64,000 nucleotides of DNA. Source: an uncultured Opitutia bacterium (GTDB lineage Bacteria > Verrucomicrobiota > Verrucomicrobiia > Opitutales > UBA953). A program made the position numbers and the translations under genes. The stretch covers positions 124,001 through 188,000 of the forward strand of contig CAMFKE010000003.1 in NCBI GenBank assembly GCA_945957395.1, written 5' to 3'. How positions within the stretch are numbered: position 1 is the stretch's first letter; every line of letters starts with the position of its first letter. This document shows positions 3,458-18,329 of this stretch, piece after piece. The notes under the pieces are model-generated. The model saw nothing but the letters and a program-made list of their open reading frames with translations, had not been told where the DNA came from and made no database searches.

Positions 3458-4486
3458 ATGAAAGCCCTCGTCAAAGCCGAAGCCGCCGTCGGCCTCAAAC
3501 TCCTCGATGTCCCGATGCCGGAAGTCGGCCCCAACGACGTCCTCATCAAGATCCGCAAGACCTCCATCTGCGGCACCGATGTGCACATTTGGAAGTGGGA
3601 TGACTGGGCCCAGAAGACCATCCCCGTGGGCATGCAGGTCGGCCACGAGTATGTCGGCGAAATCGTGCAGGTCGGCGCCAATGTCACCGCCTACAAGCCC
3701 GGCGCCATCGTCTCCGGCGAAGGCCACATCGTCTGCGGCACCTGCCGCAACTGCCGCGCCGGCCGCCGCCACCTCTGCCCGAACACCAAGGGCGTGGGCG
3801 TGAACCGCCCCGGCGCCTTCGCCGAGTACCTTTCCATCCCCCAGGACAATGTCGTCCCCGTGCCCGCCGGCGTGGACCCGGACATCGTCTCCATCTTCGA
3901 CCCCCTGGGCAACGCCGTGCACACCGCGCTCTCCTTCGACCTCGTCGGCGAGGATGTGCTCATCACCGGCGCGGGCCCCATCGGCATCATGGCCATCGCC
4001 ATCGCCAAGAAGGCCGGCGCTCGCAATGTCGTCATCACCGACATCAACCCCTACCGCCTCGAACTCGCCAAGAAGCTCGGCCCCACCCGCGTGGTCGACG
4101 TCTCCAAGGAGAAGCTCGAGGACGTGCAGAAGGAACTCGGCATGACCGAAGGCTTCGATGTCGCCCTCGAGATGTCCGGCAACGCCCGCGCGCTCGACAC
4201 CATCCTCGATAACATGGCCTGCGGCGGCAAGATCGCCCTCCTGGGCATCATCCCCGGCAAGGCCGCCATCGACTGGAACAAGGTCATCTTCAAGTGCCTC
4301 CACATCAAGGGCATCTACGGCCGCGAGATGTACGAGACCTGGTACAAGATGATCGCCCTCGTGCAGTCCGGCATGGATGTGACCCCGGTCATCACCCACC
4401 GCATGCACTACACCGAGTTCGAGAAGGGCTTCGAGGCCATGATCTCCGGCAACGCCGGCAAGGTCGTCCTCGACTGGACCAAGTAA
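3458..4486 (+). CDS. tdh: L-threonine 3-dehydrogenase
   Basis: Tdh oxidises L-threonine with NAD+ to 2-amino-3-ketobutyrate, which Kbl then cleaves with CoA to glycine and acetyl-CoA. The 342-residue protein is a zinc-dependent medium-chain dehydrogenase. It shows the catalytic zinc site [11 protein letters not shown] and GHEYVGEIV, the structural zinc cluster [15 protein letters not shown], and the Rossmann motif GAGPIGIMA. Length equals that of the E. coli enzyme (341). In many bacteria kbl and tdh are adjacent; here kbl lies at 17136-18329 on the opposite strand. Unlike most genes in the window, this one uses GACGTC/GACGTG freely. Confidence 0.95.
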
Positions 4487-4536: not shown

Positions 4537-4573
4537 AAAAGGCCCGCCCGGCTCCACGCCGGCGGGCCTTTTT
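4537..4573 (+). terminator. Intrinsic terminator after tdh
   Basis: AAAAGGCCCGCC and GGCGGGCCTTTTT form a GC-rich hairpin ending in a T-run, 50 bases after the tdh stop. The A-tract on the other side would allow some function in reverse. Confidence 0.85.
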
Positions 4574-4715
4574 GCGCGCGCTACACAATCGTGTTCAAAC
4601 GCCCGGGCGCCCCCCGGCGAAAGTCGACATCGCGCAACGGCGATCAATGCGGCCTTCGACTTTATCAAACCCGGATGGCTTGCTCCGAATGAATGCCGTC
4701 GCCATCGAGGAAGGC

Positions 4716-6005
4716 ATGACATCCCGCATCAAATCCTGCGTCGATATGTTCCATGCCGCCGTCGCCGACGGTGAGGTTGATGCGTTGCGGACGCGACTTC
4801 GCCCCGATACGGCACCCGATGTCGCCGTGAGGCAGGCCGATGCGCTCACGACGCCCTTCGCCATCGACCGTCGCTGGCGACACTTGTCGGCAGCCGAAGC
4901 GACCCGCGGCGTCATCGGCGAGGCCGCCGCGCGCCCCGCGCCGGAGTGTTTTTCGCGCAACATCGAGAATTACATCGGGCAGGTGACACTCCCTGTCGGC
5001 GTCGTGGGCCCGCTGCGTGTGCGCGGCACGCACGCCTGCGGCGACTTCCATGTGCCGCTCGCCACCACCGAAGCCGCGCTTGTCGCCTCATGCCAGCGCG
5101 GGGCGTCCGCCATCACCGAGTCGGGCGGCTGCGTCGCGATCACCCTCTCCGAAGGCGTCTCACGCTCGCCGGGCTTCGTCTTCGGCACGCTCGTCGAGGC
5201 CTGCGAATTCGCCGCCTGGGTGGCGGGTGCGGAAGCCCCGCTTAGAAAGGCGGCCGAGGCGACGACAAGGCACGGCCGGCTTTCGTCGCTGCGCATCTCG
5301 GTCGAAGGCACCCATGTGTGGGTTATTTTCGAATACACCACGGGCGACGCCTCGGGACAGAACATGGTCACGATCGCCACGCAGGCCGCCTGCGAATGGA
5401 TCATGGCCTGCACGCCCGTACGCCCGCTCCGCTGGTATGTGGAGGCCAACCTTTCGGGGGACAAGAAGGCCAGCGCCCAGAGTTTCCAATCGGTGCGAGG
5501 GCGCAAGGTGTGCGCGGAGGCGCACCTGCCGGCATCCGTGCTTTCGCACCGACTCCAGTGCGACGCCCGGGCGATGGAGGACTACTGGCGGATGTCCGCG
5601 CTGGGCTCGGTGATGTCCGGCGCCATCGGCGTGCAAGGCCACTACGCGAACCCACTCGCCGCGCTCTACATCGCGACGGGCCAGGACGCCGCCTGCGTAT
5701 CGGAGTCCGCCGTGGGCGTCACCCGATTCGAGTCGCGCCCCGACGGCTCGCTCTATGCGAGCGTCACGTTGCCGAACATCATGGTCGGCACCGTCGGAGG
5801 AGGCACCGGGCTGCCGACACAGCGCGCCTGCCTGGAGTTGCTCGGCCTCGCCGGCGAAGGCAAGGCGCGCGCACTCGCCGAGGTGGTGGCGTCGCTTTCG
5901 CTGGCGGCGGAACTCTCCATCATCGCCGCCCTGGCATCCGGTCACTTCACCCGCGCCCACGCGAAGCTTGCGCGCGGCCCGCGAGAATCCGTTTCCCATG
6001 AATGA
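4716..6005 (+). CDS. Hydroxymethylglutaryl-CoA reductase homologue
   Basis: HMG-CoA reductase reduces HMG-CoA to mevalonate with two NAD(P)H. The 429-residue protein carries the family signatures in order: ENYIGQVTLPVGVVGPL (Glu84), DASGQNM, SGDKKASAQSF (Lys250/251), ATGQDAA (Asp324), TVGGGTGLPTQ, and SGHFTRAHAKL (His415 matches the catalytic histidine). All four catalytic residues are present. The motif style is closer to class I than to class II, but it is divergent. I chose the ATG at 4716 because GAGGAAGG sits 5 bases upstream; 4689 is the alternative. It heads a seven-gene operon and overlaps the next gene by 8 bases. No other mevalonate-pathway gene is visible, so the true substrate could differ. 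Confidence 0.9.
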   Translation: MTSRIKSCVDMFHAAVADGEVDALRTRLRPDTAPDVAVRQADALTTPFAIDRRWRHLSAAEATRGVIGEAAARPAPECFSRNIENYIGQVTLPVGVVGPLRVRGTHACGDFHVPLATTEAALVASCQRGASAITESGGCVAITLSEGVSRSPGFVFGTLVEACEFAAWVAGAEAPLRKAAEATTRHGRLSSLRISVEGTHVWVIFEYTTGDASGQNMVTIATQAACEWIMACTPVRPLRWYVEANLSGDKKASAQSFQSVRGRKVCAEAHLPASVLSHRLQCDARAMEDYWRMSALGSVMSGAIGVQGHYANPLAALYIATGQDAACVSESAVGVTRFESRPDGSLYASVTLPNIMVGTVGGGTGLPTQRACLELLGLAGEGKARALAEVVASLSLAAELSIIAALASGHFTRAHAKLARGPRESVSHE

Positions 6006-6930
6006 TTCCCCTGTCTCCGCCTCGCCCGGCGGCCTCGGCCGCTGGTGGATTTATCAGCGCGAAAGGTTCCCCGTCGTCGCACACGGCCCGCTTATCGCGG
6101 CGTTCTCCGGCTGCGCGGTCAGCTACTCCATGATGCTGCGCGGCGCGACCGGCGCGCCGGACTGGCGGGCCTGCCTCGTCGCCTTCTCGGTCAGCCTCAT
6201 CTTCTTCTTTCACCTGCGCGTCGCCGACGAATTCAAGGACGCCGAGGAGGACGCCCGATTTCGTCCGTACCGGCCCGTGCCGCGCGGGCTCGTCACCCTG
6301 CGCGAACTGGGCGCGATAGCCGGCGTCGGAGCGCTCGCGCAACTGGCGCTCACGGCGTGGTGGAACATGCCGCTGCTCGGCTGGCTGGCCGTCGCATGGG
6401 CGTACTTCTGCCTCATGAGCCGCGAATTCTGGATTGGCGAATGGCTGCGCGCGCACCCGATGATCTACCTGCTCTCGCACCTGTTCATCATGCCGCTGGT
6501 CGACTTCTATGCCGCCGCCTGCGACTGGGAGCACGCCACCGGCACCATGCCCTCGGGCCTCTGGTGGTTTGTCGCCGCCAGCTATTTCAACGGCATGGTC
6601 CTCGAGGTCGGCCGCAAGCTCCGCTCCCCTTCCGACGAGGAGACCGGCGTCCAGACCTACACCGCACAGTGGGGCCGCTCGCGCGCCGTCGCCCTCTGGT
6701 TCTTCGCCCTTCTCGCCGCCGGCGGCTGCGGCGTGATGGCCGCCGCGCGACTCGGCGCCGGTTCGGCGTTCGCCGTCGTCGCAGGCGCCGTGCTGCTCGC
6801 ATGCCTTGCGGCCGGAGTGCGATTCCTGCGCCACGCTCCCGCCGGACGCGGCCGCACCCTGGAAACGCTTTCCGGCATCTGGACGCTCTCCCTGTACGCC
6901 GGCCTCGGCATCCTGCCCCGCATTCTCTGA
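5998..6930 (+). CDS. UbiA-superfamily prenyltransferase-like membrane protein
   Basis: UbiA enzymes transfer prenyl groups from a prenyl diphosphate to an acceptor within the membrane. This 310-residue protein has about eight hydrophobic segments. Near residue 74, after a transmembrane helix, comes RVADEFKDAEEDARFRPYRP, an aspartate-rich loop like the first UbiA diphosphate-Mg site. A second polar loop, EVGRKLRSPSDEETGVQTY, lies near residue 205 at the expected position of the second site. The gene begins inside the HMG-CoA reductase gene (ATGAATGA overlap) and ends 2 bases before the next start. Donor and acceptor are unknown. Genes in the operon suggest an isoprenoid or glycerolipid substrate. 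Confidence 0.78.
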   Translation: MNDSPVSASPGGLGRWWIYQRERFPVVAHGPLIAAFSGCAVSYSMMLRGATGAPDWRACLVAFSVSLIFFFHLRVADEFKDAEEDARFRPYRPVPRGLVTLRELGAIAGVGALAQLALTAWWNMPLLGWLAVAWAYFCLMSREFWIGEWLRAHPMIYLLSHLFIMPLVDFYAAACDWEHATGTMPSGLWWFVAASYFNGMVLEVGRKLRSPSDEETGVQTYTAQWGRSRAVALWFFALLAAGGCGVMAAARLGAGSAFAVVAGAVLLACLAAGVRFLRHAPAGRGRTLETLSGIWTLSLYAGLGILPRIL

Positions 6931-6932
6931 CC

Positions 6933-9467
6933 ATGTCCGAATCCCCCAATTTCGTCGTGCGCCTTTCCGAAGCGCCCGCGGGTGCGCCGCTCGGCGGCAA
7001 AGCCCGGGCCCTCGCCCACCTCATCGGCGCAGGGTTCCCGGTCCCCGACGGGCTGGTCGTGCTTCCCTCCGCCTTCGGTGCCGACGGCTCACTGGGTGCA
7101 AACGCCGCCCTCGAACTGGCCGGAAAGCTCGCGGCGCACCACCCGCACGAATCGCTTTTCGCGGTCCGCTCCTCCGCCTCCGACGAGGACGGGGGCGAGC
7201 ACTCCTTCGCGGGCCAGCTCGACACCTTCCTCGACACACCGCGCGCCGATGTCGCCGAGCGCGTGGCGAAAGTGGCGGCATCCGCCTGCGGGGAACGCGT
7301 GCTGGCCTACCGGCGCGAACGCGGACTCGCGGGGGGAGCGGCGACCGCCGTGCTCATCCAACCCATGATTCGCGCCCACTGCGCGGGCGTCGCGTTCGGG
7401 TGCGACCCGGTGTCGGGTCGACGCGGCACGGTCGTCGTCGCCGCCGTCGCGGGAACCGGAGAGAAACTCGTCTCAGGAGAGACCGACGCGCACACCTGGC
7501 GAATCCATGCCGACGGCACGCAGACCGAGGTGCATGAGACCGGGGAAGCCCGCGTCGTCGACGCCGCGCGCGCGACGGACATCGCCGGATGGGCGCGCCG
7601 GTGCGGACGCCACTTCGGACGCCCGCAGGACATCGAGTGGGCTTGGGATGACGCGGGATTCGTGCTGCTCCAATCCAGGCCGGTGACCACGCTCGGCGCC
7701 ACGCACGACCCCGACGGCGCCTTCGGCCTGTGGGACAACAGCAACATCGCCGAGAGCTACAATGGCATCACGACCCCGCTGACCTACTCGTTCGCCCGCT
7801 ACATCTACGAGGAGGTGTACAAGCAGTTCCTGCTGCTCGCCGGAGGATCGGAAGAGACCGTGCGCGAGCACGGTCCTGCCTTCTCGCGCATGCTCGGGCT
7901 TATCGGTGGACGCATCTATTACGACCTGCTCGCCTGGAACGAGCTGCTCGCCCTGCTGCCCGGCTTCGCCTTCAACCGCAAAGCCATGGAAGGCATGATG
8001 GGGGTCAGCGAAACCATGCCGCCCGAAGGCCTTCGCGCGCTGGACGCGCTGCGCCCGCCCAAGCCGGGCTTCCGTGAAACGGCATCCCTGATCAAGGGCG
8101 TCGCCGCGCTCGCCCTTCAGTTGGCGAAACTCCCGCGCACGGCGAAGGATTACAGGCGCCGGCTGGACGAGGCGCTGGCCGTGAGCCCCGATGCGCTGGC
8201 CGCCATGCGGCTCGACGAATTGATGCTCCGGTATCGCGAGCTGGAACGGCGCCTGCTGCACAAGTGGGACGCGCCCCTGGTGAACGACTTTTTCGCGATG
8301 GTCTTCTTCGGCCTTCTCGGCGCGCTGACCAAGAAGTGGATCGGCGAGGAGTACCTTCACAACGACCTCGTCGGCGCCGACGGCGAGATCGTCAGCGCCG
8401 AGCCGGCGAAGCGCATGCTGAAACTCGCCGCGCTCGCCGCGCCCGACTCCGCATTCGTCGAACTGCTCCGTTCCGGTTCCCCTCGAGAGGCGCTCGCCGC
8501 CGTCGCGCGGCGCAGCGACTTCAATCGCGAGTACGCGGCATACCTGGATCGATTCGCCGACCGCTGCCTCGAGGAGCTGAAGCTGGAGACGGAAACGCTG
8601 CGCGACGACCCGATGCCGTTGCTGCGCTCCGTCGGCGAGCTCGCCTCGCGCATGGCGGCCGGCGAAACCGCCGCCGGTCACGGCGATGTCGCAGCCTCGA
8701 TGCGCGCCGCCGCCGAAGCCAAAGCCCGCGCCGCCCTGCGCGGCAAACCGCTCCGCGCTGCCGCCTACAGCTGGGTCCTGCGCATGGCCAGGCGCCGCGT
8801 GCGCGACCGCGAAAACCTGCGCTTTGAACGCACGCGCCTTTTCGGACGGGTCCGCCTCATCTTCCTCGAGATCGGCAGACGGCTTAACGCGGCCGGCCAC
8901 CTTGCCGAGCCGCGCGACATCTTCTACCTGACCGTCGACGAGATCAAAGGCTTCGTGGAAGGCACGGCGGTCACCACCAACCTGCGCGGGCTGGTCGCGC
9001 TGCGGAAAGAGGAATTCGCCGGCTTCCGCGAGCGCGCCCCCGTCGCCGACCGCTTCCATACCTGGGGCGCCGTGCATGATGGCAACCGGTTCCGCCCCAC
9101 CCGCGTCGAGGAGCCCGCGACAGGGCCCGAGCGCCGCGGCCTCGGCTGCTCGCCCGGAGTCGCGCGGGGACGCGTGCGCGTCGTGCTCGACCCTCGCGGC
9201 GCCCGCGTGGAACGCGGCGAGATACTCGTGGCGCCGCGCACCGACCCGGGCTGGATTCTCCTTTTCCCTCCCGCCGCCGGGCTCGTGGTGGAGCATGGCA
9301 GCCTGCTTTCACACTCCGCCATCGTCTCGCGCGAACTCGGACTTCCCTGCGTCGTCTCCGTACCGCGCGCCTCGCAATGGCTTCGCGATGGCGACCTTGT
9401 CGAACTCGACGGCTCGACGGGCGTCGTGAGACTCCTCGAACGATTCACGCCCGACACCCTCTCATGA
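6933..9467 (+). CDS. PEP/pyruvate-binding phosphotransferase-like protein (RPH/PpsA N- and His-domains)
   Basis: This 844-residue protein has an N-terminal ATP-grasp-like PEP/pyruvate-binding domain (about residues 10-250, with LGGKARALAHL and AVRSSASDED). A long helical middle follows (DNSNIAESYNGITTPLTYS near 265). The C-terminal phosphohistidine domain reads GCSPGVARGRVRV then SLLSHSAIVSRELGLP, with His794 as the predicted phospho-carrier. There is no C-terminal PEP-binding barrel, so it is not a standard PEP synthase. The order and length match rifampicin phosphotransferase, which passes the beta-phosphate of ATP to a hydroxyl group. Here the acceptor may be a lipid or prenyl alcohol made by the operon; that is inference. 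The stop overlaps the next start as ATGA. Confidence 0.85.
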   Translation: MSESPNFVVRLSEAPAGAPLGGKARALAHLIGAGFPVPDGLVVLPSAFGADGSLGANAALELAGKLAAHHPHESLFAVRSSASDEDGGEHSFAGQLDTFLDTPRADVAERVAKVAASACGERVLAYRRERGLAGGAATAVLIQPMIRAHCAGVAFGCDPVSGRRGTVVVAAVAGTGEKLVSGETDAHTWRIHADGTQTEVHETGEARVVDAARATDIAGWARRCGRHFGRPQDIEWAWDDAGFVLLQSRPVTTLGATHDPDGAFGLWDNSNIAESYNGITTPLTYSFARYIYEEVYKQFLLLAGGSEETVREHGPAFSRMLGLIGGRIYYDLLAWNELLALLPGFAFNRKAMEGMMGVSETMPPEGLRALDALRPPKPGFRETASLIKGVAALALQLAKLPRTAKDYRRRLDEALAVSPDALAAMRLDELMLRYRELERRLLHKWDAPLVNDFFAMVFFGLLGALTKKWIGEEYLHNDLVGADGEIVSAEPAKRMLKLAALAAPDSAFVELLRSGSPREALAAVARRSDFNREYAAYLDRFADRCLEELKLETETLRDDPMPLLRSVGELASRMAAGETAAGHGDVAASMRAAAEAKARAALRGKPLRAAAYSWVLRMARRRVRDRENLRFERTRLFGRVRLIFLEIGRRLNAAGHLAEPRDIFYLTVDEIKGFVEGTAVTTNLRGLVALRKEEFAGFRERAPVADRFHTWGAVHDGNRFRPTRVEEPATGPERRGLGCSPGVARGRVRVVLDPRGARVERGEILVAPRTDPGWILLFPPAAGLVVEHGSLLSHSAIVSRELGLPCVVSVPRASQWLRDGDLVELDGSTGVVRLLERFTPDTLS

Positions 9468-10564
9468 CTGAAATCGCCGAACGCGCGCAATTCTCGCGCA
9501 TCCGCTACGCCCAACTTTGGGAGGACGCCGATGTCCTCCTCGACGCGCTGGAAATCCGGCCCGGAGACACCTGCGTCTCCATCGCCTCGGCCGGGGACAA
9601 CGCCATGGCGATGCTCGCGCGAAACCCCGCCAAGGTCCACGCGGTCGACCTCAGCGCGTCGCAGATCGCCTGCGTCGAGCTTCGCCGCGCCGCGATGGGC
9701 GCGTTGAGTCGGGAAGAGTGGCTGGAGCTGGCCGGCTCCCGCACGGGCGGGCGGCGCGAGGCGTTGCTCGCCCGCTGCCTCCCGGACATGCCCGGGGACG
9801 CCGCCGCCTTCTGGCGCGCCATGCCGGACCTGGCGGAGTGCGGCGCGGCGGGGCTCGGCAAGTTCGAGAACTTTTTCCGCATCTTCCGTGAGCGCGTCAT
9901 GCCGTTCATCCATTCGCGACGCGAGGTGGACGCCCTGCTCGCCGGCAATCCGGACAGAGCCGCGCGTGAGCAATTCTATGAGCGGACTTGGAACAACCTT
10001 CGCTGGCGGCTCCTCTTCCGCGTTTTCTTTTCCCGATTCGTCATGGGCAGACTCGGCCGCGACCCTGAGTTTTTCCGGTTCGTCGAAGGCGATGTCGCCT
10101 CGCGCATCCTGTCGCGCACGCGGCATGCGCTGGTCGAGCTGAACCCGGCGGAAAACCCGTACCTGCATTGGATTCTGAAAGGCGGCCATGGAAATGCGCT
10201 CCCGCAGGCCTGGCGCGCCGGCGAGTATGAGGCGGCGGCGAAGAACCGCCGCTCGCTCGAATGCCACCTGTGCTCGCTCGAGGCGCTGCTGGCCAAACTT
10301 CCCGAACGCAGCGTCCACCGGTTCAACCTGAGCGACATTTTTGAATACATGTCGCCCGCCGGGTACGAGGCCGCGCTTGAAGCCATCCTGCGCGTCGCCG
10401 CTCCTGGCGCACGGCTGGTTTACTGGAACATGCTTGTGCCGCGGCACCGGCCCGACCGGCTCGCCGACCGGCTGCTGCCTCGCCGCGACATCGCGGCGCG
10501 GCTGCACGCGAGGGACAAGGCGTTCTTCTACAGCGACCTTGTGGTCGAAGAGGTTGCGCCATGA
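9464..10564 (+). CDS. BtaA-like S-adenosylmethionine:lipid 3-amino-3-carboxypropyl transferase (DUF3419)
   Basis: The DUF3419/BtaA family moves the 3-amino-3-carboxypropyl group of SAM to the hydroxyl of diacylglycerol, the first step of betaine-lipid synthesis, and releases methylthioadenosine. The 366-residue protein begins with the typical RIRYAQLWEDADVLLDAL. The nucleotide-binding segment TCVSIASAGDNAMAML then AVDLSASQIACVELRR follows, and the C-terminal half has FNLSDIFEYMSPAGYEAAL. No BtaB methyltransferase is in the operon, so an unmethylated homoserine-type headgroup or a non-DAG acceptor is possible. It overlaps both neighbours by 4 bases. A nucleosidase able to remove methylthioadenosine lies just past the operon. 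Confidence 0.87.
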   Translation: MTEIAERAQFSRIRYAQLWEDADVLLDALEIRPGDTCVSIASAGDNAMAMLARNPAKVHAVDLSASQIACVELRRAAMGALSREEWLELAGSRTGGRREALLARCLPDMPGDAAAFWRAMPDLAECGAAGLGKFENFFRIFRERVMPFIHSRREVDALLAGNPDRAAREQFYERTWNNLRWRLLFRVFFSRFVMGRLGRDPEFFRFVEGDVASRILSRTRHALVELNPAENPYLHWILKGGHGNALPQAWRAGEYEAAAKNRRSLECHLCSLEALLAKLPERSVHRFNLSDIFEYMSPAGYEAALEAILRVAAPGARLVYWNMLVPRHRPDRLADRLLPRRDIAARLHARDKAFFYSDLVVEEVAP

Positions 10565-11871
10565 ACGCGTGGGGCGCATGCGCACTGGTGCTCGGAGGTC
10601 TCCTCGCCCTGCTCGCGGCGGCCGGAGCCGCGCGTCGCGCGGGACTCCTCACCCCCGAGCTCGCCCGCAAGAGCGTGCATGCCGGACTGGGCACTGCATG
10701 CGCGGCGTTCCCCTGGATTTTCACCGGCAACGCGCCGGTCTTCGCGCTCGCGGCGGTCGCCCTGCTTTCGCTGCTTGCGTTGCGGTTCATGCGCCGCCGC
10801 GCCGGGTTGCGCGGCGCCCGCATCGGAGCGGCGTTGCACGAGGTGGAACGCAGCAGCCTCGGCGAACTCTGGTTCCCCGTGGCCGTCGCGCTCGTCTGGT
10901 GGCTTTCCGCGGGAGATCCCGCGCGGTACTCGCTGCCGGTGCTTATCCTGGCCTGGGCGGACGCGGCAGCCGCCATGGTGGGCGTACGCTTCGGCTCACG
11001 CCGGTACTCGACGGACGACGGCTGCAAATCCTGGGAAGGCTCGCTGGCCTTCCTGATGACCGCCTCGGCGCTCACGGCCGTCGCGTGCATACTTGGCGGA
11101 GAATCGGACCCGGTCCGCATCGCCGGAATCGCGCTCACCGTCGGGCTTTTCTCGATGGGCGTGGAGGCGGTGTCGCGCAACGGAGCCGACAACCTCCTGA
11201 TTCCCGTCGCCTGCTGGGCGCAACTGCGGGTGTATGAGACGCTGCCGACGTCAGCCCTCCTCCTGCGCGCGACGATCCTGTCCGGAGCGGTCATGCTCGT
11301 GTGCGCACGACGCCGCATCACGCCGCTCAACGACGCCGCCCTGTTCGCGGCGTATCTCGCGGTCTACCTCTTCTGGGCGCTGGGCGGCGCGACGGGCCTC
11401 GTCGCCTCCGGCGCCTGCCTGGCCGTTTACACGGCGATAAACCGGCTGCGCCCCGTCGCCCGCGATGACGGCCACGATGTGGCGGGGGTCGCGGCGGCGG
11501 GCTTCCCCGGCGCACTGGCACTCGCCGCCGGCATCGCCTCGGGCGCGGGCGCGGAGAACTCGCTGCCCGGCGCCTTTGGCGCGGCGGCAGCGGTTTTGAC
11601 CTACGCGCATTTCCGCGCGCCGGCCCGGGGGGCGCGCCCCGCACTCATCGCCGTCACCTGCGGACTGGCGACAATCGCCGCGGCGGCCGGAGCATCATTG
11701 GCGTGGCCGACGGCGGAAGCTCTGCTCTCAGCGCCGTTATCGGTCGCGCTCGCCGCACTCTTGTGGCGAAAGCATCTGCCGGGCGCCCGATGCGACGCGC
11801 GCATCGCGGGCCAGATGAGCGCCACGCTGCCGGCGACGATACTCCTCATTCTCCAACCCCTATCACGATGA
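10561..11871 (+). CDS. Phytol/dolichol kinase-like CTP-dependent membrane kinase
   Basis: The 436-residue protein is strongly hydrophobic, with roughly 12 membrane segments. In its first half it carries the pattern of the SEC59/DGK1/VTE5 lipid-kinase family: LARKSVHAGLG near residue 40, WADAAAAMVGVRFG near 135, CKSWEGSLAF near 156, and a later GADNLLIPVACW. Those proteins use CTP to phosphorylate prenols or diacylglycerol. The second half (from about residue 230) is an extra hydrophobic region without motifs I recognise, so this may be a fused or extended form. Translationally coupled at both ends (ATGA). A role in phosphorylating a prenyl alcohol or lipid fits the operon but is inferred. Confidence 0.78.
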   Translation: MNAWGACALVLGGLLALLAAAGAARRAGLLTPELARKSVHAGLGTACAAFPWIFTGNAPVFALAAVALLSLLALRFMRRRAGLRGARIGAALHEVERSSLGELWFPVAVALVWWLSAGDPARYSLPVLILAWADAAAAMVGVRFGSRRYSTDDGCKSWEGSLAFLMTASALTAVACILGGESDPVRIAGIALTVGLFSMGVEAVSRNGADNLLIPVACWAQLRVYETLPTSALLLRATILSGAVMLVCARRRITPLNDAALFAAYLAVYLFWALGGATGLVASGACLAVYTAINRLRPVARDDGHDVAGVAAAGFPGALALAAGIASGAGAENSLPGAFGAAAAVLTYAHFRAPARGARPALIAVTCGLATIAAAAGASLAWPTAEALLSAPLSVALAALLWRKHLPGARCDARIAGQMSATLPATILLILQPLSR

Positions 11872-12878
11872 ACGACATGATGCTCCTGCGCGGCGACTCC
11901 GCCGTGGCGGCGATCGAAGCGCAACACGCGCCCGCCGGGCTTGCCCAGGGTCGCATCCGGCGAGAACGGCCCGACCTCGCGCTGGCGGCGCTGCGTGACG
12001 GCCGTGTGGTGGCGCGCGCCTCCTGCTGGTGGACGGACGCGCCGCCCATCCCGGAGGGCCGCGCCGGCGCCATCGGCCATTTCCACGCCGACGACGCGCA
12101 GGGCGCGCAGACCATACTCGACGCGGCGTGCGCCGCCCTTGCCGAATCGGGATGCACCACCGCGTACGGCCCCATGGACGGCAACACCTGGCGAAGCTAC
12201 CGCCTCGTGGTCGAGTCGGACGGATCCCACCCGTTCTTTCTCGAACCGTCGAATCCACCCGCGTGGCCGGGCTGGTGGGAGGTCGCCGGGTTTTCCGAAT
12301 CCGCCGGCTATTCCTCCTCGCGCATCGCGCTGCCCGCGCCGGCCGACCCTCGCGCGGCGGCGGCCGAAGCGAGACTGGAGCGATCCGGCGTCCGTATTCG
12401 GACGCTGGATGCCTCAAGACTGGAGGAGGAGTTGCGCGCGGCGTATGCCGTGACGGTGGCGGCCTTCGGCGCGGCTCACCTTTATACCACCTTGCCCGAA
12501 TCCGATTTCCTCGGGCGCTACCTGGCGCTCGGCCCCGCGCTCAACCCCGGATATGTCCTTCTCGCGGAGAAAGACGGCCGGTTGGTCGGCTACCTCTTCG
12601 CGATTCCTGACCTGAACGAGGTGCGGCGAACAGGGGCCACGGGCACGCTCATCGGCAAGACCATCGCGGTGCTTCCCGGGCGCGAATTCGCGGGGCTTGG
12701 AGCCGTCCTGAGCCGGAGGCTGTACGACATCGCCGAACGCGCGGGATTCCGGCACCTCATCCATGCCCTGCAGTTCGACGGCAACACCTCGGCCAGGAAC
12801 CTGAGCGGCGACGGGCTTTCGCGACTGCGCCGCTACGCGCTTTTCGCAAAGCGACTCGACGGGAGGAATGCGTCATGA
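11868..12878 (+). CDS. GNAT-like acyltransferase family protein
   Basis: A 336-residue soluble protein with a two-part layout seen in some GNAT-fold proteins. The N-terminal half contains GPMDGNTWRSYRLVVES and FLEPSNPPAWPGWW. The C-terminal half contains a beta-strand and acyl-CoA-loop-like region (YVLLAEKDGRLVGYLFAIPD, then GREFAGLGAVLSRRLYDIA) and ends with NTSARNLSGDGLSRLRRYALF, a pattern common at the end of GNAT domains. In this operon it could acylate an amino group, for example that of the aminocarboxypropyl headgroup made by the BtaA-like enzyme. That is a hypothesis. It overlaps the genes on both sides by 4 bases. Confidence 0.7.
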   Translation: MNDMMLLRGDSAVAAIEAQHAPAGLAQGRIRRERPDLALAALRDGRVVARASCWWTDAPPIPEGRAGAIGHFHADDAQGAQTILDAACAALAESGCTTAYGPMDGNTWRSYRLVVESDGSHPFFLEPSNPPAWPGWWEVAGFSESAGYSSSRIALPAPADPRAAAAEARLERSGVRIRTLDASRLEEELRAAYAVTVAAFGAAHLYTTLPESDFLGRYLALGPALNPGYVLLAEKDGRLVGYLFAIPDLNEVRRTGATGTLIGKTIAVLPGREFAGLGAVLSRRLYDIAERAGFRHLIHALQFDGNTSARNLSGDGLSRLRRYALFAKRLDGRNAS

Positions 12879-14458
12879 ACCTCGCGACGATTCTGCAGGA
12901 GCGCGCACGACGCCAGCCGGACCGACCCGCGCTGATCACCGGCGTCGACGGATCGGAGCGCGTCGTGTCCTACGCGCAGCTTGAGGAAATCTCCGGCCGT
13001 GTCGCCACAGGGTTGCGCGCGCGCGGCATCGGGCGCGGCGACGCGGTTCTCGTGTGGGTGCCGATGTCCGTCGAACTTTACGCCCTGCTTCTCGGCCTCT
13101 TCCGGCTCGGCGCGGTCGCGATGCTGGCCGACCCCGGAGCGGGCGCCGCCGCGCTTGCCGCCGCCTGTCGCCGAGGGCGCCCCAAGATGCTCGCCGCGCC
13201 CTGGTATGCGCACGCGCTGCGCCTCCGGCATCCCTCGCTTCGCCGCATCCCGACGCACCTCACGACCTCGGGATGGTTCCCCGGAAACCTGACCTGGTCA
13301 CGGCTGACGGATGGCGAGCCGATGGTCGGGTGCGAAGCCACCTCGCCCGACTCGCCGGCACTGCTCACCTTCACCAGCGGCAGCACCGGCGAGCCCAAGG
13401 CGGCCATGCGCACGCACGGATTCCTCCTCGCCCAACACGAGGCGATTCGCTCGGCCATCGGGCTTGGCGAAGGCGAAGTGGACCTGGCGACGCTGCCCGT
13501 CTTCGTGCTCGCGAACCTCGCCTCCGGCATGACGAGCCTCATCCCGGCGGGAAACCTGCGCCGGCCCGGCCATGTCGATCCCGCGCCCATCGCCCGACAG
13601 ATCGCCCGACACCGCCCCACTCGCGGCGGCGCCTCGCCCGCATTTTTCCTGCGCCTCGCTGATGGCGGCGTCCGCTGGCCGGAATGTGTCCGGCTCTACA
13701 CCGGCGGCGCGCCGGTCTACCCGCGCTACTTCCCCGCCTTCGCCAAACTCGCGCCGAAGGCAGGCGTGACGGTCGTGTACGGCTCCACCGAGGCGGAGCC
13801 CATCTCGGAATGCACCGGCGAAAGCCTCTCCGCCGCAGATTTCGCCACCATGCGTGCCGGCGAAGGACTCATCGTGGGCAAACCGTGCGAGAACACGCGC
13901 GTGCGCATCCTGCCTCCGCAGGCGCTGCGCGCTGCCGCCCAACCGACGGAGCCGGCGGAGTTTGACGCGATGGAGATCCAAGCCGGCGGCGAGGGCGAGA
14001 TAGTCGTTGCGGGACCGCAGGTGCTGCGTGGCTATCTCGATGGGGTCGGCGACGAGGAGACGAAGATCCGCGTCGGCGACACGATCTGGCACCGCACCGG
14101 CGACTGCGGCCGCTTCGACGCCGCAGGACGGCTCGTGCTGCTGGGCCGCTGCTCGGCGGTCGTCGCCACGCCGCAGGGAACACGACTTCACCCGTTCTCC
14201 ATCGAGGCGGCGGCAATGGAAATCGCTGGCGTTCGACGCGCCGCCTTCCTGTCTCACGACGGGCGACTCACGCTGGTCGTCGAGCCCGACGGCCGGGCGC
14301 CCTCGAAGGATCAGTTTTCCCCGCTCGCGCGACTCGGCGTGGAGGCGGTGGCGTTCGTCGACCGGATACCGACGGACCGACGGCATAACGCCAAAATCGA
14401 GTACCCCGCGCTGCGTGCGCGGCTCGCACGCACACGCCTCGTTCCGATCTCGAACTGA
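12875..14458 (+). CDS. AMP-dependent acyl ligase, OleC-like
   Basis: The 527-residue protein belongs to the ANL adenylating enzymes, which activate carboxylates as acyl-AMP. Visible motifs are the P-loop LTFTSGSTGEPKA (about residue 164), YGSTEAEPISE (about 302), HRTGDCGRFD (about 406) and the C-terminal catalytic-lysine region RRHNAKIEYPALR. The segments LPVFVLANLASGMTSL and YTGGAPVYPRYF are typical of the OleC-like branch, whose best-known member makes beta-lactones during olefin synthesis. OleA, OleB and OleD are not present here, so it probably has another role such as activating a fatty or hydroxy acid for the operon product. It is the last gene of the operon; no terminator is seen before the convergent gene 19 bases away. 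Confidence 0.85.
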   Translation: MNLATILQERARRQPDRPALITGVDGSERVVSYAQLEEISGRVATGLRARGIGRGDAVLVWVPMSVELYALLLGLFRLGAVAMLADPGAGAAALAAACRRGRPKMLAAPWYAHALRLRHPSLRRIPTHLTTSGWFPGNLTWSRLTDGEPMVGCEATSPDSPALLTFTSGSTGEPKAAMRTHGFLLAQHEAIRSAIGLGEGEVDLATLPVFVLANLASGMTSLIPAGNLRRPGHVDPAPIARQIARHRPTRGGASPAFFLRLADGGVRWPECVRLYTGGAPVYPRYFPAFAKLAPKAGVTVVYGSTEAEPISECTGESLSAADFATMRAGEGLIVGKPCENTRVRILPPQALRAAAQPTEPAEFDAMEIQAGGEGEIVVAGPQVLRGYLDGVGDEETKIRVGDTIWHRTGDCGRFDAAGRLVLLGRCSAVVATPQGTRLHPFSIEAAAMEIAGVRRAAFLSHDGRLTLVVEPDGRAPSKDQFSPLARLGVEAVAFVDRIPTDRRHNAKIEYPALRARLARTRLVPISN

Positions 14459-17135: not shown

Positions 17136-18329
17136 TTAGCAGCCGACGGTCTTCTTGGCCTTGGCGAAGGCTTCGAGGGCCTGGTCGAGGTCTTCCTTGG
17201 TGTGGGCGGCCGAGATCTGCGTGCGGATGCGGGCGAGGCCCTTGGGGACGACCGGGTAGAAGAAGCCGACGGCGTAGACGCCGTTGTCGAGGAGGGCCTG
17301 CGAGAACTTCTGGGCCACCACGGCGTCGCCGAGCATGACGGGGACGATGGGGTGCTCGCCGGGCTGGAGCTTGAAGCCGAGCTCGGTGAGGCCCTTGCGC
17401 CAGTAGGCGGCGTTGCTCATCACGCGGTCGCGGTACTCGGTGGTGCGGGTGAGCAGGTCGAACACGGCCAGCGTCGCGGCGCACAGCGAGGGCGCGAGGG
17501 AGTTCGAGAAGAGGTAGGGGCGGCTGTGCTGGCGCAGGATCTCGACGCACTCCTTCTTGCCGGAGATGTAGCCGCCGGAGGCGCCGCCGAGGGCCTTGCC
17601 GAAGGTGCCGGTGATGAGGTCGATGCGGCCCATGGCGTTGCAGTGCTCGTGGGTGCCGCGGCCGCGCTTGCCGAGGAAGCCGACGGCGTGGGAGTCGTCC
17701 ATCATGAGCATGGCCTGGTGCTTGTCGCAGACATCGGCGATCTTGTCCATGGGGGCGATGAAGCCGTCCATCGAGAACACGCCGTCGGTGGCGACCATCT
17801 TGAGGCGCGCGCCGGCGGCGGTGGCCTCGCCGAGCTTGGCGTCGAGTTCGGCGAGGTCGCAGTTGGCGTAGCGGTAGCGCTGGGCCTTGCACAGGCGGAT
17901 GCCGTCGATGATGGAGGCGTGGTTGAGGGCGTCGGAGACGATGGCGTCCTCGGGGCCGAGGAGGGTCTCGAAGAGGCCGCCGTTGGCGTCGAAGCAGGAG
18001 GAGTAAAGGATGGTGTCCTCGGTGCCGAGGAACTCGGAGACCTTCTCCTCGAGCTGCTTGTGGAGGGACTGGGTGCCGCAGATGAAGCGCACGGAGGCCA
18101 CGCCGTAGCCCCACTTCTCGAGCGACTTGGCGGCGGCGGCCTTCACCTCGGGATGGTCGGCCAGGCCGAGGTAGTTGTTGGCGCACATGTTGATCACGGT
18201 GCGTCCGTCGTTGAGCACGACGCGGTTGCCCTGGGCGCCGGCGATGAGACGCTCCTGCTTGTAGAGGCCGGCGGCGCGGATTTCCGCGAGGCGGCTGTCG
18301 TATTGTTCCTTGGCCTTGGGGGAGAACAT
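17136..18329 (-). CDS. kbl: 2-amino-3-ketobutyrate coenzyme A ligase
   Basis: Kbl cleaves 2-amino-3-ketobutyrate with CoA to glycine and acetyl-CoA, completing threonine breakdown begun by Tdh. The 397-residue PLP enzyme of the alpha-oxoamine synthase family begins [17 protein letters not shown]. It shows [33 protein letters not shown], the PLP-contacting [18 protein letters not shown] and the lysine motif [15 protein letters not shown] around residue 245. Length matches E. coli Kbl (398). The tdh gene lies 12.6 kb away and in the opposite orientation, so the pair is not an operon here. It is transcribed toward the terminator at 17074-17115. Confidence 0.95.

Follow-up and report, generated by a model that had tools for sequence, protein, structure and literature searches.

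A probable FcrA-type homologue of HMG-CoA reductase at the head of a seven-gene lipid operon in an uncultured Opitutia bacterium

The DNA analysed here, a stretch of 64,000 nucleotides referred to as the window, carries a compact group of seven genes, named A to G. The group spans positions 4716-14458 on one strand, and A is its first gene. The successive gaps from A to G are -8, 2, -4, -4, -4 and -4 bp. Because the genes lie on the same strand and are separated by only -8 to 2 bp, they are very likely co-transcribed. The first-pass annotation had described A as heading a lipid operon, and the six further genes, tightly packed downstream, fit that description. The genes and two upstream signals are as follows, with the evidence for each in brackets.

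4540..4573, + strand: likely intrinsic terminator, a GC-rich inverted repeat and T-run after tdh (read from the sequence)
4707..4711, + strand: GAGGA, likely ribosome-binding site of A (read from the sequence)
4716..6005, + strand: A, 429-residue class I HMGR homologue, probably of the FcrA type (profile, alignment, tree)
5998..6930, + strand: B, UbiA-family membrane transferase (PF01040 50 bits, conserved columns)
6933..9467, + strand: C, PEP-synthase-like dikinase (PF01326, PF00391, NCBIfam, motifs)
9464..10564, + strand: D, DUF3419 protein of the BtaA family (PF11899, alignment, phylogenetic profile)
10561..11871, + strand: E, membrane protein whose N-terminal half is CdsA/CTP-transferase-like (motifs, weak profile, predicted fold)
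11868..12878, + strand: F, tandem GNAT acyltransferase (PF00583, AlphaFold)
12875..14458, + strand: G, AMP-forming acyl-CoA ligase-like enzyme (PF00501, NCBIfam, conserved motifs)

The hairpin and T-run at 4540-4573 likely divide the operon from the upstream threonine dehydrogenase gene (tdh). The ATG at 4716 is preferred as the start of A, since GAGGA lies just upstream and the Met is invariant in the 17 orthologues compared. The coordinates 4716-6005, originally given for the HMGR homologue, are upheld by the same start codon, GAGGA and orthologue Met. Residues of A are counted from this Met. Further, tdh (3458-4486, + strand) and kbl (17136-18329, - strand) are found on opposite strands and enclose the lipid operon, at a distance of 12.6 kb from each other. 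In five relatives of the same family, the two genes are adjacent and on one strand. This difference fits an acquisition of the operon together with a rearrangement. The operon genes are otherwise missing from the window's family, and no island stood out clearly by its GC content. A nucleosidase gene of the MTA/SAH type (PF01048; 14478-15221, - strand) converges on the operon. It was considered as a salvage partner that could recycle MTA made by D and was rejected, as its adjacency to the cluster is not conserved.

The partners of A belong to several enzyme families. B retains the DExKDxxxD motif of its TM2, and its second motif reads ExxRKxxxPxxE in place of DxxxD. C combines an ATP-grasp domain with a phosphohistidine domain, as PEP synthase does, and retains the catalytic SHSAIV motif (SHSAIVxRE); its nearest group among the NCBIfam models is that of rifampicin phosphotransferase and RedH/PigC (prodigiosin ligase). 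D scores 209.6 bits on PF11899, above the gathering cut-off of 28.2. It thereby shares a Pfam family with BtaA, the SAM-dependent 3-amino-3-carboxypropyl transferase of betaine lipids, but it forms a separate subfamily that is linked to the A-G operon. F is predicted with confidence (AlphaFold pLDDT 94), and its best PDB matches are the tandem GNATs 7q3a and 1ozp/2c27, the latter being MshD. G groups with PRK09274 of NCBIfam. An identity of G as OleC of the olefin pathway was rejected, since it scores 208 bits where 900 are required.

In the N-terminal half of E, the KxxEGS and ExxxxxGxDN motifs are conserved, and the CdsA signature is absent. We take these KxxEGS and GxDN motifs to be those of polyprenol and phytol kinases. 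The profile PF01148 (CTP_transf_1) matches weakly, with an E-value of 1.2 in the window protein and 5e-5 in one relative. The predicted fold has a pLDDT of 90, and the top structure match of the N-terminal half is the CDP-DAG synthetase CdsA (4q2g; Z 8.8 over 164 residues), a level that may arise by chance in helical proteins. A Foldseek search gave no match below E 0.001, and the C-terminal half is poorly conserved. Going by the weak profile matches, the motifs and the middling structural match, E may be a CTP-dependent kinase-like protein.

A itself was compared with profile models of the HMGR family. PF00368 gives 370 bits over residues 82-429 of a slightly longer version of the reading frame (P0001). 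On the class I model TIGR00533, A scores 328.1 bits, and on the class II model 47 bits; the former value falls below the NCBIfam equivalog cut-off of 441.8 bits. No Lad or ACP domain is present in A, and a Lad-like N-terminal domain was rejected on the ground that the N-terminal extension measures only ~80 residues. Alignment places Lys250, Lys251, Asp324 and His415 opposite human Lys691, Lys692, Asp767 and His866, in agreement with the first-pass annotation. Glu84, which had been counted in the same catalytic set, belongs to an ENxxG motif instead; the catalytic Glu is Glu119, in ATTEAAL, the counterpart of human Glu559. All four catalytic residues (Glu119, Lys250, Asp324 and His415) are present.

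The substrate pocket is a different matter. As compared with the human enzyme, A has Glu243 for Ser684, Met293 for Lys735 and Phe411 for Leu862. The same replacements run through the 98 members of its clade: the Ser684 site is Glu or Asp in 98/98, the Lys735 site is likewise never Lys (98/98; M/V/I/S/T/F/L, mostly Met), and the Leu862 site is Phe in 96, the other two being alignment gaps. Glu559, Asp690, Lys691 and Asp767 are retained throughout these 98 sequences. The ordinary HMGRs of the phylum retain both Ser684 and the pocket Lys. Lys735 is known to pair with the carboxylate of HMG in a salt bridge (PMC9500038). As read from the alignment, the contacts to this carboxylate are lost in A and in all 98 relatives. 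The divergent motif style noticed in the first reading is thus genuine, and it defines a clade rather than noise. Another observation in the window's order is a third, very divergent HMGR-like protein (L042:8762-9991), which has EKRP instead of DKKP (D690E, K692R) and is without Lys735.

In a reductase tree of 60 sequences, the window-type enzymes form one clade with 97% SH-aLRT support. The HMGRs of human, plant and Methanothermococcus fall outside this clade, as do the ordinary HMGRs of its own phylum. A shares with the canonical class I enzymes (human, plant, Methanothermococcus 6hr7) the fold, the catalytic Glu/Lys/Asp/His and a TIGR00533 score of 328 bits, but it differs from them in the sub-cut-off value of that score, the replaced HMG-carboxylate contacts, the missing mevalonate pathway and the separate clade. 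A full mevalonate pathway and a placement within the characterised HMGRs, named early on as evidence that would speak against an unusual role, were both looked for, and neither was found.

The reductase also occurs without the operon in Vibrionaceae and Thalassotalea, and those copies nest within the window-type clade. Such stand-alone FcrA-type genes were seen in Vibrio, Photobacterium and Thalassotalea loci (including L071, L082, L086, L098, L100 and L106), where they have Asp at the Ser684 site and the partners are missing nearby. The operon-type D was not found in the six Vibrionaceae/Thalassomonas genomes searched, and no alternative partner set was evident around the Vibrionaceae copies. 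Of these six genomes, only that of a Photobacterium has the wax synthase WS/DGAT. A search of plasmids returned only lone HMGR-like genes, none of them above 60% identity.

A characterised precedent for such a pocket is available. The HMGR homologue FcrA of Ca. Promineifilum breve carries out the NADPH-dependent reduction of acyl-CoA of at least C14 to the alcohol (Grossi et al. 2025, PMC11948995). It does not reduce HMG-CoA and is not inhibited by simvastatin, and the paper describes it as selective for unbranched chains. Three pocket changes are named: Glu stands at the Ser684 site, residues other than Lys take the place of the pocket Lys, and Leu862 has given way to a bulky side chain; this Lys is printed as Lys795 in PMC11948995 and is read here as Lys735. 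The same study states that bacteria having FcrA without the canonical enzyme have no mevalonate pathway. In Natronomonas, FcrA serves wax-ester storage, but it is often found without a wax synthase, and hence other roles must exist (PMC11948995). The Ser684/Lys735 pattern had been noticed in the present analysis before that paper was found, so the two observations are independent.

A resembles FcrA in many respects. It has the class I HMGR fold, the equivalents of the catalytic Glu559/Lys691/Asp767/His866, Glu at the Ser684 site (Glu243), loss of the pocket Lys (Met293) and an aromatic residue for Leu862 (Phe411). Carriers of either enzyme without a canonical HMGR have no mevalonate pathway, and both are widely spread in bacteria. 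Unlike the tested FcrA, however, A is missing the N-terminal Lad domain, and the Lys735 site in the window-type clade is mostly Met instead of a small residue. A is also part of a seven-gene operon, undescribed in the main text of PMC11948995, and the genomes with the cluster are without wax synthase. A common descent of A with the characterised enzyme is suggested by the residue signature that they share and by what has been published on FcrA.

The isoprenoid supply of the organism was examined through its genome (2.79 Mb, 96% complete). A is the single HMGR homologue; the genome search gave no second copy. The MEP pathway is represented by IspH and IspE. HMG-CoA synthase was not found in a search of this genome, and it has no GHMP kinases of the mevalonate type, its only GHMP proteins being GalK and IspE. 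The window had been noted to hold no other mevalonate-pathway gene, and this is borne out on the scale of the genome, from which HMG-CoA synthase and the mevalonate-type kinases are missing too. The suggestion that A supplies mevalonate to a partial pathway finds no support: the organism has MEP genes, its genome is without HMG-CoA synthase and mevalonate kinases, and the 98 relatives have all lost the HMG-carboxylate contacts.

Since a single genome could be incomplete, further genomes were tested for HMG-CoA synthase. It was present in all six genomes of the phylum that have both the ordinary and the window-type HMGR. Among the other genomes carrying the window-type reductase, where an ordinary second HMGR was sought except in 15 genomes reached through named loci, it was present in 1/26 (Fisher p 8e-6 for the contrast with 6/6). 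HMG-CoA synthase thus tracks the ordinary HMGR type and not the window type. On the whole, the residues and gene content make it almost certain that A has a function other than the reduction of HMG-CoA.

To survey the spread of the cluster, the window genes were compared by tblastn with 80 loci taken from named genomes. All seven genes lie within ~10 kb in 43 of these loci. The records with the complete cluster include some titled Verrucomicrobia, Planctomycetota, Acidobacteria, Alpha- and Gammaproteobacteria, Desulfobulbus and Geobacteraceae, and further Bacteroidetes (Dyadobacter, Rhabdobacter, Sphingobacterium), Cyanobacteria and Trueperaceae. With the record titles taken at face value, those of metagenome bins included, this amounts to about ten phyla. 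Part of the set was seen in records titled Betaproteobacteria, Ktedonobacterales and Armatimonadetes. One complete cluster is on the chromosome of a Coxiellaceae bacterium (L108). Within the window's phylum, the same gene set is found, and its order differs in some genomes; in one of the genomes surveyed (G336, L048), the reductase and the DUF3419 gene (G336:C52:26606-27673) are on different contigs, apparently a split cluster. Of 177 genomes in the window's order, four have the window-type reductase, and exactly these four have the window-type D (p 3e-8, both being rare).

A comparison of neighbourhoods gave no extra gene consistently adjoining the cluster. A cytochrome P450-like gene is near it in seven loci and a sulfotransferase-like gene in three Rhodobacteraceae loci, both identified by eye from the sequence; the cluster loci L119, L130 and L136 have such genes upstream. 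It is possible that these neighbours tailor the product. WS/DGAT (PF03007) was found neither in the window genome nor in 26 further genomes with a cluster or split cluster. As it is absent from all 27 tested, the alcohol would not be routed to wax esters in these genomes.

It is proposed that the seven proteins act in one lipid pathway. G would activate a fatty acid as a thioester, and A would reduce the long-chain acyl thioester to a fatty alcohol with NADPH, in a four-electron reaction. This first part, from fatty acid through acyl-CoA to fatty alcohol, is well supported, as we infer from the chemistry of the two families and the FcrA precedent. The alcohol or a later intermediate would then be phosphorylated by the kinase-like E and the dikinase C. 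B, a UbiA-like protein with altered motifs, may move the activated alkyl chain onto an acceptor in the membrane. D would add a 3-amino-3-carboxypropyl group from SAM in the manner of BtaA, and F would acylate the product, perhaps at the amine. The expected product would be an alkyl (ether) aminolipid. UbiA-type chemistry usually requires an allylic diphosphate, and an alkyl transfer by B would therefore be unusual. How the steps after the alcohol follow one another and what the product is are conjecture, and doubtful in the details. The earlier alternative, in which A reduces a different acyl-CoA to an alcohol that the later enzymes phosphorylate and modify, gains support from the FcrA signature and the conserved ligase, kinase-like, dikinase and transferase genes.

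Other explanations of the locus must be weighed against this proposal. A could be a working HMG-CoA reductase after all, whose mevalonate serves as a building block or in a partial pathway. The fold and the four catalytic residues are retained, and the degradation of leucine can yield HMG-CoA without HMG-CoA synthase; an imported precursor is another conceivable source. Nevertheless, Lys735 is lost and an acid is at Ser684 in 98/98 relatives, HMG-CoA synthase and the mevalonate-type kinases are missing, and the synthase tracks the other HMGR type, which makes such an activity very improbable. A branched or isoprenoid alcohol of the phytol or polyprenol type could instead be made from its acyl-CoA, with E, C and the UbiA-like B running a prenyl transfer. 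The pairing of a phytol kinase with a UbiA protein is known from phytol salvage in plants, and the motifs of E are similar to those of CTP-dependent polyprenol/phytol kinases. However, the cluster is without an aromatic acceptor pathway, B is without the usual second Asp motif, and FcrA is described as favouring unbranched chains (PMC11948995); we regard this route as quite improbable.

It may also be that A reduces a thioester internal to the pathway, such as a homoserine-ether or amino-acyl group activated by G, with Glu243 binding the amine, and that F acylates the product, an amino-alcohol lipid resembling ceramide. This would account for the invariant acid in the reductase pocket; D would provide a carboxylate beside an amine, G could activate the acid made by D, and F is a GNAT like MshD. 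But FcrA has the same Glu and yet uses plain fatty acyl-CoA (PMC11948995), and the orphan copies of Vibrionaceae, which are without D-G, still have Asp at this site, so that such a substrate appears unlikely. Storage of wax esters, the role described for FcrA in PMC11948995, has hardly any claim here, as WS/DGAT is missing from the 27 genomes and the conserved partners are lipid-modifying genes instead. The reading of A as an FcrA-type enzyme and not an HMGR, working within a dedicated lipid module, is thus the preferred one, and we give it a probability of about 0.8 from the sequence comparisons.

The kind of enzyme has been known since 2025 as FcrA; as far as the open literature searched goes, the seven-gene module seems not to have been described. 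Queries on DUF3419 with HMGR and UbiA, on the Vibrio HMGR and on the operon found no description of the A-G cluster in open-access papers. The lipocone paper mentions HMGR together with a GHMP kinase, which is another context and was set aside as not relevant here. As far as the description in PMC11948995 goes, the module also differs from the ElbD/FarA route to alkyl ether lipids in myxobacteria: the reductase family is a different one, and ElbD/FarA is one multidomain protein, as against seven genes, without the UbiA, dikinase and DUF3419 partners.

The operon is a concrete candidate for the role of FcrA outside wax synthesis that PMC11948995 left open, and it comes with six named partners. 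Cultured hosts of the cluster are found in Dyadobacter, Ruegeria, Sphingomonas and Sphingobacterium. An annotation as HMG-CoA reductase is probably wrong for many bacterial genes, whose enzymes would yield fatty alcohols and not mevalonate. It is tentatively suggested, with the odds still against it, that A-G is a widespread route, so far undescribed, to a new class of membrane lipids in bacteria, the product being an alkyl ether or phospho-alkyl aminolipid; B would then be a repurposed UbiA enzyme, and the group added by D a homoserine group. If this is true, the lipid class would be spread across about ten phyla.
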